From the NCBI GenBank assembly GCA_903945175.1, contig CAJAUM010000121.1, forward strand, positions 62,001 to 126,000: a stretch of DNA of 64,000 nt. The letters are read 5' to 3'. Below, one piece after another: positions 20,775 through 64,000 of this stretch. The stretch is from an uncultured Bacteroidales bacterium. GTDB lineage: Bacteria > Bacteroidota > Bacteroidia > Bacteroidales > FEN-979. The translations under genes and the position numbers were made by a program. The notes below the pieces were generated by a model. The model did not search any database and was not told where the DNA came from. It was given only the letters and a program-made list of their open reading frames with translations. Every line of letters begins with the position of its first letter. Position 1 is the first letter of the stretch.

Positions 20775-20780
20775 TATCTC

Positions 20781-20808
20781 GTAACGCTTCACGCGTCACG
20801 TGTCACGG
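20781..20808 (+). repeat. degenerate GTCACGC heptamer tandem, copy 1
   Basis: Four consecutive 7-base units read GTAACGC, TTCACGC, GTCACGT and GTCACGG. The same heptamer recurs at 53745-53784 (as reverse complement) and 62122-62184. It lies between the stop codon of the sigma-54 activator gene and the lptE promoter. Confidence 0.75.
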
Positions 20809-52761: not shown

Positions 52762-53769
52762 TTGTCTGACTCGAACTTCGTTGATTATGTAAAAATTCAT
52801 TGTGCCTCCGGCAACGGAGGAGCAGGGTCACGGCATTTTATGCGTACACGCACCAATGCACACGGAGGCCCCGACGGAGGCGACGGGGGGCGTGGCGGCC
52901 ATATCATTCTTAAAGGGAACAGTCAGTTCTGGACCTTGCTTCACCTGAAATTTACAAAACATCTCAAAGCAGAGCATGGAGGTGCAGGCTCTAAACAATT
53001 GATGCACGGCGCCAATGGCAAGGATGTTTTCATCGATGTTCCTCTGGGGACCTTGGCCCGTGATGCGGAAACCGGTGAATTTATATGTGAGATCACAGAG
53101 GATGGCCAAACATTTATCCTGGTGCCCGGTGGTCGCGGTGGTCTAGGCAATGATCACTTCAAGACTCCGACACGTCAGGCTCCCAAATTCGCGCAACCCG
53201 GAGAACCCGGACTGGAGTTCTGGAAGGTACTGGAATTAAAGCTTTTGGCCGATGTCGGATTGGTTGGATTTCCCAATGCCGGCAAATCGACCCTGTTGTC
53301 GGTTATATCAGCAGCCAAACCGCAGATCGCAGACTATCCATTCACCACCCTGGTGCCCAATCTGGGTATCGTGCGGTATCATGACAATAAATCGTTTGTC
53401 ATGGCCGATATTCCTGGAATCATTGAGGGCGCCCACGAAGGAAAAGGACTTGGGCTGCGTTTTTTACGTCATATTGAACGAAATTCCACCCTGCTTTTCA
53501 TGGTGCCGGTTGATGCGAAGGATATCCGTAAAGAGTACCTTATTTTATTGAATGAACTTGAACAATACAATCCCGAATTGCTTGATAAAACCCGTGTCCT
53601 GGCAATTACCAAATCTGATCTCGCCGACGATGAGATTATCCGGGAGCTGAAAAAGGATTTACCAGAACTCCCGACAGTTTTTATCTCCTCACATAAACAA
53701 ACCGGTCTTGAAAAACTGAAGCAAATGTTGTGGCAGGAGTTAACGCGTGACGAAACGCGTGACGCGTGA
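52762..53769 (+). CDS. obg: GTPase Obg
   Basis: A 335-residue Obg/CgtA GTPase involved in ribosome assembly and stress control. The glycine-rich Obg fold (residues 1-160, e.g. [13 protein letters not shown]) precedes the G domain: G1 GFPNAGKST (169-177), switch I DYPFTT, G3 [17 protein letters not shown]4 ITKSDL. The start is TTG at 52762. The last eight codons (TRDETRDA) and the stop codon fall within a 7-base tandem repeat, so the C-terminal tail is repeat-derived. The core is unaffected. Confidence 0.95.
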
Positions 53770-53784
53770 CGCGTGACATGTGAC
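53745..53784 (+). repeat. GCGTGAC heptamer tandem, copy 2, spanning the obg stop codon
   Basis: One GCGTGAC (53745-53751), a 5-base spacer, then three perfect tandem GCGTGAC units (53757-53777) and one variant ATGTGAC (53778-53784). The array encodes the obg tail, contains its TGA stop and reaches the region before the PAP2 gene. It is the reverse complement of the arrays at 20781 and 62122. Confidence 0.9.
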
Positions 53785-53797
53785 GAAATTTTTCAAG

Positions 53798-61728: not shown

Positions 61729-64000
61729 ATGTCCCAGTTAATTGTAAGAGAAAAACGTACAACCATTGGTCATCTGGCGCTTGCCTTCCTTTTGACGGTA
61801 TTTTGCGGAGTACCCTGGAGGACGATAGCGCAGGAGAAAACCGTAACCTATTATGCTGATCCGGCATCGGTACCACCCGATATGCCCATTGCCATCAAGC
61901 ATCTGACCGCCCATGTCAGCTTTCAGCCTGAACAGAACAAGGTCATCGGAACCGCTGAATTCTCCTTTATCCCAAACTGGTATCAAACCGATTCCATTGT
62001 GTTCTATCTCCCTGACGCCCATGTGTTTTCTGTGAAGATAAACAATGAGCCGGTGAATTACCATCAAACAGGGAGCAACCTGATAATCAATCCAGATTCT
62101 GATTCACAACAATCGTTACCTGTCACGCGTCACGCGTCACGCGTCACCTCAGATACGTCACGCGTCATGTCAGATACGTCACGCATCCTGATCAATTACA
62201 CCGCCACCCCCCTTGCCGGCCCGATCTACTTTATCGGCTGGACTCCAGGCGAGGCAGGCAAACGCAAGCAGATTTGGGCGCACCGTCCGCATGGCTGGCT
62301 TCCTTACATGGATGGCCGCATCACGGTGGACATGTTTATCACCTTCGATAGCAGATACAAGGTGTTTTCAAATGGTGAGCGGCTGGACATTGCGGAGAAT
62401 CCTGACGGAACAAGAACCTGGCATTATGCCATGAAAAAGGATCATCCGTTTTTCTCCACGGCCCTGGTGATTGGCGATTATGACTTTCACAGCAGCGAGA
62501 CTTCACAGGGGGTGCCGCTCGAATACTGGTTTTATAGCGAAATGGCCGACCGGGTTGCCACAACCTATAAATATACCGAGCAGATGTTCGATTTTTTTGA
62601 GAAGGAGATGGGCGTTCCCTATCCCTATCCGGTGTACCGCGAAGCGCCGGTGATCGATTACATGTATGGGGCCATGGAGACCACCACCAGTACCGTGTTT
62701 GGCGATTATATGCAAATTGATCCGCGGGCCTGGTGGCAGCGCAATTATGTGAATGTAAATGCCCATGAACTCGCCCACCAATGGTTTGGAAATTATGTGG
62801 CCCACTTTGTCAACCGCGACGTATGGCTCACCGAGAGTTTTGGAACCTATTATGCCAAGATGTTTGAAAAGAGTATCTATGGGGAGGATTATTACCAGAA
62901 TCTCCGCAATGAGGAGATGCTCCTGACCTTTGATGCGGCATCAAAAAACAGTTACCCGGTTGGAGGGTCGCAGGGCGGCGTACAGCGGATTTACCAGAAA
63001 GGTTCACTGGTATTGGATATGCTTCGGGATGTGATGGGCCCGCAGGAATTTAGGGATGCGATCAGGCGCTATCTGGAGCAATATGGATTCAGCTATGCCG
63101 AAACCAGCGATTTCTTCCGTTGTGTTTATGATGCGACAGGCAAATCCTACCATTGGTTTTTCGATCAATGGATTTTAAGGGGAGGCGAACCGGAGTACAA
63201 ACTATCAGATACGGTTGTCACCGATTCTCTCGGGAACCTCTCCACACTTTGTAAAGTCTGGCAGGTTCAGGAGGTGAATGAATTGAAAGGCCTGTTTAAA
63301 ATGCCCATCGTTTTTATGGTGTATTACAAGGATGGGTCCTGCGACAGTGTGAAGGCATGGATTGAAAGAGCCTACACCGAGGTCAGGATCCCCAACCCGG
63401 GGAAGAGGCCGGTTGAATTTGTTTTGTTCGATCCCAGCCGGAAAATCCTGAAAAAGGCCACCTTCGACCGAACCTTTGACCAGCTTGCCGCCCAGGCAGT
63501 GAAGGCAAAAAACATGATTGACCGGTATGATGCCTGGCTGGCCTTGCGTCCGATCGCGGTCGATCGAAAAGTAAAGCTCCTGATCCCGGCATTTCACAAG
63601 GAAAGTTTTTGGCTGATCAGGTCAGAAATTCTCGGGCAATTGGCCGCAGATCATTCGCCGGAGGTCATTGAGCTTTTCAGGCAGGCGCTGCATGACAAAG
63701 ACGCCAATGTCCGCAAAGCCGCGCTGAAAAATCTGAATCCCCTGCCCGATCTGTTGCAATCGACGGCAGAGGGCATGCTGTATGATTCGAGTTACCTCAA
63801 TGTGGAGCTGGCGCTTGGCGCACTGTGTAGCTCATTTCCCAAATTCACCGATCAGTATCTTGAACTGACCGTTGGAATGGAGGGGTGGCGTGGAAAAAAT
63901 ATCCGGATGAAATGGCTCGAAGTGGCGATCAACAGCGGGAAAAATCAATGTATGCCCGAATTGATCAAATATTGTGGTCCAAAATTCGAATTCGAAACAC
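61729..64000 (+). CDS. M1 family aminopeptidase with an in-frame repeat insert, 3' end beyond the window
   Basis: At least 757 residues are in view and the frame is still open at base 64000. A signal peptide (MSQLIVREK... to TIAQEK near residue 34) precedes the N-terminal domain. The exopeptidase motif is GAMET (314-318, usual form GAMEN), and the zinc motif is HELAH (346-350) with Glu369 exactly 18 residues further. The C-terminal part looks like helical HEAT-type repeats (VIELFRQALHDKDANVRKAAL). Residues 131-152 ([15 protein letters not shown] and following) are encoded by a 7-base tandem repeat and appear inserted between a short strand and LINYTATP. The enzyme would trim peptides in the periplasm. 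Confidence 0.93.
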   Translation, partial: MSQLIVREKRTTIGHLALAFLLTVFCGVPWRTIAQEKTVTYYADPASVPPDMPIAIKHLTAHVSFQPEQNKVIGTAEFSFIPNWYQTDSIVFYLPDAHVFSVKINNEPVNYHQTGSNLIINPDSDSQQSLPVTRHASRVTSDTSRVMSDTSRILINYTATPLAGPIYFIGWTPGEAGKRKQIWAHRPHGWLPYMDGRITVDMFITFDSRYKVFSNGERLDIAENPDGTRTWHYAMKKDHPFFSTALVIGDYDFHSSETSQGVPLEYWFYSEMADRVATTYKYTEQMFDFFEKEMGVPYPYPVYREAPVIDYMYGAMETTTSTVFGDYMQIDPRAWWQRNYVNVNAHELAHQWFGNYVAHFVNRDVWLTESFGTYYAKMFEKSIYGEDYYQNLRNEEMLLTFDAASKNSYPVGGSQGGVQRIYQKGSLVLDMLRDVMGPQEFRDAIRRYLEQYGFSYAETSDFFRCVYDATGKSYHWFFDQWILRGGEPEYKLSDTVVTDSLGNLSTLCKVWQVQEVNELKGLFKMPIVFMVYYKDGSCDSVKAWIERAYTEVRIPNPGKRPVEFVLFDPSRKILKKATFDRTFDQLAAQAVKAKNMIDRYDAWLALRPIAVDRKVKLLIPAFHKESFWLIRSEILGQLAADHSPEVIELFRQALHDKDANVRKAALKNLNPLPDLLQSTAEGMLYDSSYLNVELALGALCSSFPKFTDQYLELTVGMEGWRGKNIRMKWLEVAINSGKNQCMPELIKYCGPKFEFET
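62122..62184 (+). repeat. GTCACGC heptamer tandem, copy 3, inside the M1 peptidase gene
   Basis: Three perfect GTCACGC units (62122-62142) and a variant GTCACCT, then two further blocks in which CAGATAC separates GTCACGC-type units (62157-62170 and 62178-62184). The stretch is in frame with the peptidase and contains no stop codon in that frame. Confidence 0.92.

Follow-up and report, generated by a model that had tools for sequence, protein, structure and literature searches.

Heptamer arrays recur at gene ends and in frame in conserved enzymes of a Bacteroidales genus, and the copy in an M1 aminopeptidase is probably a tolerated loop

The window, a 64,000-nucleotide stretch of DNA from an uncultured Bacteroidales bacterium, closes within a gene for an M1 aminopeptidase that carries a tandem array of heptamers in its coding sequence (Table 1). 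In the whole contig the open frame of this gene spans 803 codons from stop to stop. Membership of the M1 family is indicated by the Pfam match to PF01433 (4.6e-31), which covers residues 281–481, and by the catalytic motifs HELAH (HExxH) and WLTES (downstream Glu), which are invariant in a 10-row alignment. The array consists of nine heptamers in the order GTCACGC (three times), GTCACCT, CAGATAC, GTCACGC, GTCATGT, CAGATAC and GTCACGC, and its 63 bp form 21 codons in frame. TRF assigned a period of 7 with 3.7 copies and 100 percent matches to positions 62122–62147, and described the remainder by a 21-bp period at 62135–62184. The doublet GTCACGCGTCACGC, with at most one mismatch, matches the window four times compared to 0.01 expected from shuffles. 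The preliminary description of this DNA had reported three perfect GTCACGC units plus variants in the M1 gene, and the nine heptamers bear this out. It had also held that a change of one unit would shift the frame, which the reading frame confirms; with one unit less a stop appears at codon 152 and with one unit more at codon 210.

Table 1 Features of the window that bear on the heptamer arrays.
Feature	Position	Strand	Context	Evidence
Heptamer array, nine units	62122–62184	+	In frame, residues 132–152 of the M1 protein	Sequence and TRF, above shuffles
M1 aminopeptidase gene	61729–63999	+	Passes window end	ORF, PF01433 4.6e-31
Second array (GTCACGC)	53742–53785	−	Carries stop codon of the obg-like gene	TRF, sequence
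obg-like GTPase gene (assumed from sequence)	52840–53769	+	3' end overlapped by second array	Homologues in 41 of 41 genomes
Third array, more degenerate	20780–20807	+	Directly past the stop codon of a gene	TRF, sequence

The heptamer was also said to occur at two other loci of the window, and both were found by TRF and in the sequence. The second array overlaps a gene that we take, from its sequence, to encode an obg-like GTPase. Among the obg-like orthologues, the stop codon lies in an array in four of the 18 with a readable 3' end (G000, the genome that contains the window, and G016, G001 and G013). The tail of the protein after LWEELNR differs among species (L180–L197) and in several it is encoded by the adjoining short repeat.

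We collected 30 orthologues of the M1 protein from 61 genomes, 12 from outside the genus and 18 from inside; none was found in G009. The array occupies a loop, defined as the stretch bounded by two conserved strands, which is 21–23 residues long in the 12 orthologues outside the genus, 26–55 in the 18 genus members and 39 in G000; the array thus sits in a segment of variable length. An AlphaFold2 model, weak overall (mean pLDDT 57.7, pTM 0.44; 10-row alignment, protein cut at the window end), predicts residues 122–150 to be without secondary structure, between strands 117–121 and 151–159. GTCAC-type arrays occupy the loop in G000, G001, G003 and G004, that of G001 being degenerate, and in G015 the loop contains another heptamer, CCCTCGT, in about 13 copies that are translated as SLVPRPS repeats. 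Net insertion is not universal; the array-bearing loop of G003 has 28 residues, similar to array-free relatives.

The preliminary description had proposed phase variation, in which slipped-strand mispairing of the heptamer toggles the M1 gene on and off. In favor of such a switch, the unit length is not divisible by three, gain or loss of a single unit truncates the protein, and H. influenzae has strain-variable heptamer tracts, one with only 1–7 units, in a survey that counted tracts from three units (PMC2651432). H. influenzae is thus similar in having heptamer tracts whose unit number varies, there between strains; however, as that source describes them, the three tracts named as potential switches lie upstream of genes and two are long, and the hmw tracts, also upstream, hold 13–38 units (PMC2651432). 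The M1 array has only 3.7 perfect units, all five array-bearing M1 orthologues of the genus have open frames, and the unit is also present in ordinary metabolic and in repair genes. On these grounds we consider an on/off switch very improbable.

The wider set of array-bearing genes points the same way. We scanned 20 array-bearing proteins, 12 of G000 and eight of G003, and 19 matched a Pfam family. The genes include those for IspG (GcpE), a MurF-Alr fusion, an M17 aminopeptidase, FGAR-AT (PurL), a UvrA-type protein, an aminotransferase-AIRS fusion, an amino acid permease, an NAD-dependent epimerase and a DnaE-type polymerase, and the arrays thus show no link with genes for surface or variable traits. 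Most bacteria cannot do without some of these functions, which makes a switch a poor fit. We do not call the DnaE-type protein essential because G000 has a second DnaE in a frame of 1181 codons.

Six proteins (M1, M17, epimerase, MurF-Alr, IspG and DnaE-type), chosen because each has a GTCACGC array in G000, were compared across species, with orthologues taken from 61 genomes for M1 and from 31 for the others; site and frame counts refer to genus rows, second copies excluded. Orthologues were not found for M17 and MurF-Alr in G001, for the DnaE-type protein in G004 and for the epimerase in G004, G005, G011 and G014, and six of the 15 genus epimerase rows (G002 and G006–G010) match over about 193 residues only and are paralogue-like. 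A freely varying unit number would leave about two thirds of states out of frame. No frameshift-broken copy was demonstrated among the 106 genus orthologues of the six proteins, a count from which consensus assembly would hide minority states and in which orthologues that were not found could in principle conceal broken copies. Two of the 106 ORFs, both in G008, are incomplete and unreadable as ON or OFF: IspG extends to a contig end, and MurF-Alr lies next to arrays, its start 143 bp short of a contig end and its MurF half absent from that contig. In G008, contig C110 at its end (L267) and contig C311 at its start (L287) stop in or beside heptamer arrays, and longer arrays may therefore be places where assemblies break.

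A genome-wide search bore out the suggestion that the M1 tract belongs to a family of repeats rather than standing alone. The 4.4-Mb genome G000 contains 73 exact copies of the doublet and none of the reversed-pattern control; with two mismatches allowed, the numbers are 378 and 13. We scored 62 arrays in 426 kb of G000, made up of the window and of stretches nearly all chosen around arrays, and placed them by our own gene calling, trained per genome, in which single placements may err: 35 are intergenic, 13 lie inside genes, 13 over 3' ends and one over a 5' end. The arrays of G000 measure 14–56 bp of direct heptamers, except for one of 93 bp. In G003, 11 of the 23 scored arrays lie inside genes and two over 3' ends; in G016 the 34 scored comprise none inside genes, six over 3' ends and one over a 5' end, in a sample (L140–L159, L114) that covers part of the 137 doublets of that genome. 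In-frame GTCACGC-type arrays nevertheless exist in G016, in M17, the epimerase, MurF-Alr and IspG. Other repeats accompany the arrays of G000: octamer arrays of the CCTTGTCA/CCTTGTTA type and other heptamers, TTGGTAA/ATGACCA, GTCATTC and ATTTACG, are found near GTCACGC arrays (L086, L123, L126, L127, L138 and others).

Orientation follows a rule across three species. Internal GTCACGC arrays read in the stop-free orientation on the coding strand in 24 of 24 cases, arrays over gene 3' ends have the opposite orientation (GCGTGAC) in 21 of 21, and the two over 5' ends are likewise GCGTGAC. When repeated, GCGTGAC yields TGA in all three frames. The preference for gene ends might also reflect a function, with the arrays serving as binding sites or RNA elements that regulate at gene ends and the copies in genes being by-products. 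Consistent with this, 35 of the 62 G000 arrays are wholly intergenic compared to 9.6 percent noncoding sequence in the surveyed DNA, 21 of these 35 are nearest to a 3' end and 16 of the 21 lie within 10 bp of it, and many arrays have T-runs beside them, with heptamer blocks flanking a T-run in many of the intergenic ones. However, arrays would also come to lie past stop codons if the stop-free strand were the only one that genes tolerate, the GTCACGC doublet is missing from nine of the 18 other genus genomes, and the unit differs between the sister genomes G000 and G008. We regard a regulatory role as quite unlikely.

Within genes, period 7 prevails. Among 147 ORFs of the six proteins, from which L226, L251 and L321–L326 were omitted (second hits, partial genes and the other DnaE), a single threshold gave 77 segments of period 7, 18 of period 8 and none at periods 4–6 and 9–12. 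All 77 fall in 46 of the 106 genus rows and none in the 41 other rows. In the window and 20 stretches from relatives, mostly M1-bearing contigs with two picked at known arrays, period 7 accounts for 17 segments, period 8 for 11 and the other seven periods together for three.

Arrays of different species meet at the same sites. The shared sites comprise one in M1 (five genomes, three consensus units), one in M17 (seven, six), two in the epimerase (four, three; four, two), three in MurF-Alr (two, two; nine, eight; six, five), three in the DnaE-type protein (nine, six; seven, five; six, seven) and one in IspG (three, one) with an additional G008 case at a contig end; several of these "different" units are one substitution apart or are the consensus of mixed arrays. 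The arrays occupy fewer sites than random placement gives: one versus a random mean of 4.7 in M1, one versus 6.0 in M17, three versus 13.3 in MurF-Alr and three versus 16.9 in the DnaE-type protein. For the epimerase the number was two versus a mean of 6.0, with a random minimum that is also two. IspG has two versus 3.6, and clustering there is not unusual because the random minimum is one. Co-location across species can also reflect one ancestral array. The units form a network, with 39 neighbor pairs among 28 units versus a random mean of 7.2 and a random maximum of 14, the observed number being inflated by the consensus of mixed arrays.

Dispersal of this kind could also stem from a small mobile, selfish element that transposes between genes and in frame into them. 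The precedent is the Rickettsia palindromic elements, described as 105–146 bp long and as in-frame fusions in conserved proteins, which apparently tolerate them (Ogata 2000, reviewed in PMC2229807). The GTCACGC unit is likewise dispersed over many loci of the genome and in frame in conserved proteins, and T-rich spacers recur between heptamer blocks. In contrast to the Rickettsia elements, the arrays are direct heptamers, and inspection by eye of 62 G000 arrays with 60-bp flanks revealed neither constant flanking or end sequence nor inverted repeats at the termini, such as would bound an element of ~100–150 bp. Moreover, unit number and sequence vary among the G000 arrays and one site often holds different units in different species. 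We therefore consider a mobile element unlikely.

The GTCACGC doublet is present in 18 of the 61 genomes around that of the window, and nine genomes of a phylum-wide set of 296 have it, the window's own genome included in both counts. A distant genus (f42, g85) has 14, 5 and 6 doublets in G092, G253 and G293 (L329–L343), mixed with GTCACGG, GTTACGC and similar units, and chance, descent or transfer may account for these. Candidate sources outside the chromosome gave little: the 21-mer GTCACGCGTCACGCGTCACGC occurs in just two stretches of IMG/VR, by which a phage origin was rejected, and a 74-bp array stretch had no plasmid match at E 1e-5, a search in which the low-complexity filter may hide one. 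With the doublet in 18 of 61 genomes, an assembly artefact is unlikely, though the length given for long arrays may be wrong.

Sister species are informative on how the arrays may turn over. G000 and G008 are sisters (FastTree support 0.999), and in both the MurF-Alr gene contains heptamers in three blocks of four, set apart by 8-base spacers with a period of 36 bp; the blocks are written with GTCAC in G000 and with GTCCC in G008. GTCCCGC doublets number 83 in G008 and zero or one in each of the 18 other genus genomes, and G008 has 42 GTCACGC doublets as well. Units of 36 bp, i.e. four heptamers and an 8-base spacer and hence a multiple of three, are found inside genes at L135:3443–3535 (G000 MurF-Alr) and in L313 (G008 DnaE-type). 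It is conceivable, though we hold it only tentatively, that many arrays of one species, in-frame ones at orthologous loops included, shift to a new unit in concert while site and higher-order layout are kept, as the GTCACGC and GTCCCGC arrays of these two genomes suggest. In MurF-Alr, the two genomes could instead have expanded one ancestral block in parallel. Two unit families also meet in one 7-bp register, GTTGGCA passing into GTCACGC in G016 and TCAAATG into TCACCCG in G013.

IspG may link an array to ordinary peptide. Among 11 hand-picked genus species with a 30-residue loop, seven have a peptide at most two changes from RVTRHAS, encoded by non-repetitive DNA in five and by perfect heptamers in G016 and G017; G000 has a longer array and the remaining seven genus loops are of another kind. 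Over eight codons and 55 pairs of the 11 species, the mean pairwise differences at codon positions 1, 2 and 3 are 3.27, 2.11 and 5.25, and change is thus greatest at third positions without being confined to them. In G016 and G017 the loops that hold an array are as long, at 30 residues, as those that lack one, so pure insertion does not account for IspG. The peptide could predate the array, which then formed on it. The preliminary description had named, as evidence against its proposal, orthologues in which the same residues come from non-repetitive DNA; IspG provides such orthologues and M1 does not.

Taken together, sites recur, units differ, orientation follows a rule and the readable frames are open. 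We think it likely that these short tandem arrays form a genus-wide population of period 7, more rarely 8, that occupies intergenic DNA, the 3' ends of genes and, in frame, permissive loops in ordinary enzymes. The M1 array is probably one of its members and as such would encode a tolerated loop, not a switch. Arrays may arise or grow through replication slippage in 7-bp steps, may be homogenized or replaced by related units and may decay via point mutation, and purifying selection would retain only the frame-preserving states.

Other dispersed heptamers share part of this behavior. TAACTGA direct repeats are described from Beggiatoaceae, some Cyanobacteria and five Bacteroidetes and are, like GTCACGC, 7-bp tandem arrays that are dispersed, mostly intergenic and patchy across lineages, with a mechanism of spreading given in that account as not known (MacGregor 2015, PMC4679880). 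One TAACTGA orientation gives stops in all frames and the longer in-gene copies have the other, and two close Cyanothece strains differ mostly by 7-nt indels (PMC4679880). As described there, TAACTGA repeats lie mostly just upstream of start codons, whereas GTCACGC arrays often adjoin stop codons, and their in-gene copies mostly fall at the termini of proteins or in small hypothetical ones (PMC4679880), whereas those of GTCACGC occupy internal loops of conserved enzymes at sites common to several species with differing units. The G-rich heptamers of Xanthomonas and Nostoc are similarly dispersed with a noncoding bias and near gene ends, they vary in length between related strains, and their authors too doubt phase variation (Rehm 2015, PMC4692102). 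Unlike the units studied here, they are reported to form G-quadruplexes, to prefer four copies and to be under-represented in coding regions (PMC4692102). GTCACGC differs from both described units with which we compared it, TAACTGA and GGGNATC. Cyanobacterial STRR, short tandem repeats that include heptamers, were reportedly found by Vioque in 1997 also inside a functional RNase P RNA gene, i.e. in an RNA gene of another lineage, in contrast to the protein loops here. Among the matches listed in our literature search, in which subscription journals are thinly covered, none dealt with heptamers that lie in frame at loop sites common to several species.

The usual expectation for repeats with a unit length not divisible by three is that they are kept outside coding sequence or act as switches. 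In this genus, the repeats inside conserved enzymes are mainly of period 7, and several species carry them at the same loops in units that differ. One could thus track here how protein segments derived from repeats are born, replaced and fixed, and put to a direct test why the step measures seven bases and by what route the units spread. Concerted rewriting, if true, would point to conversion between arrays or to templated copying with a 7-base step, and would mean that core enzymes are supplied with new segments, some of which are later kept as ordinary peptide, such as RVTRHAS in IspG. For the annotation of such genomes, heptamer-bearing ORFs should not be labeled phase variable by default.
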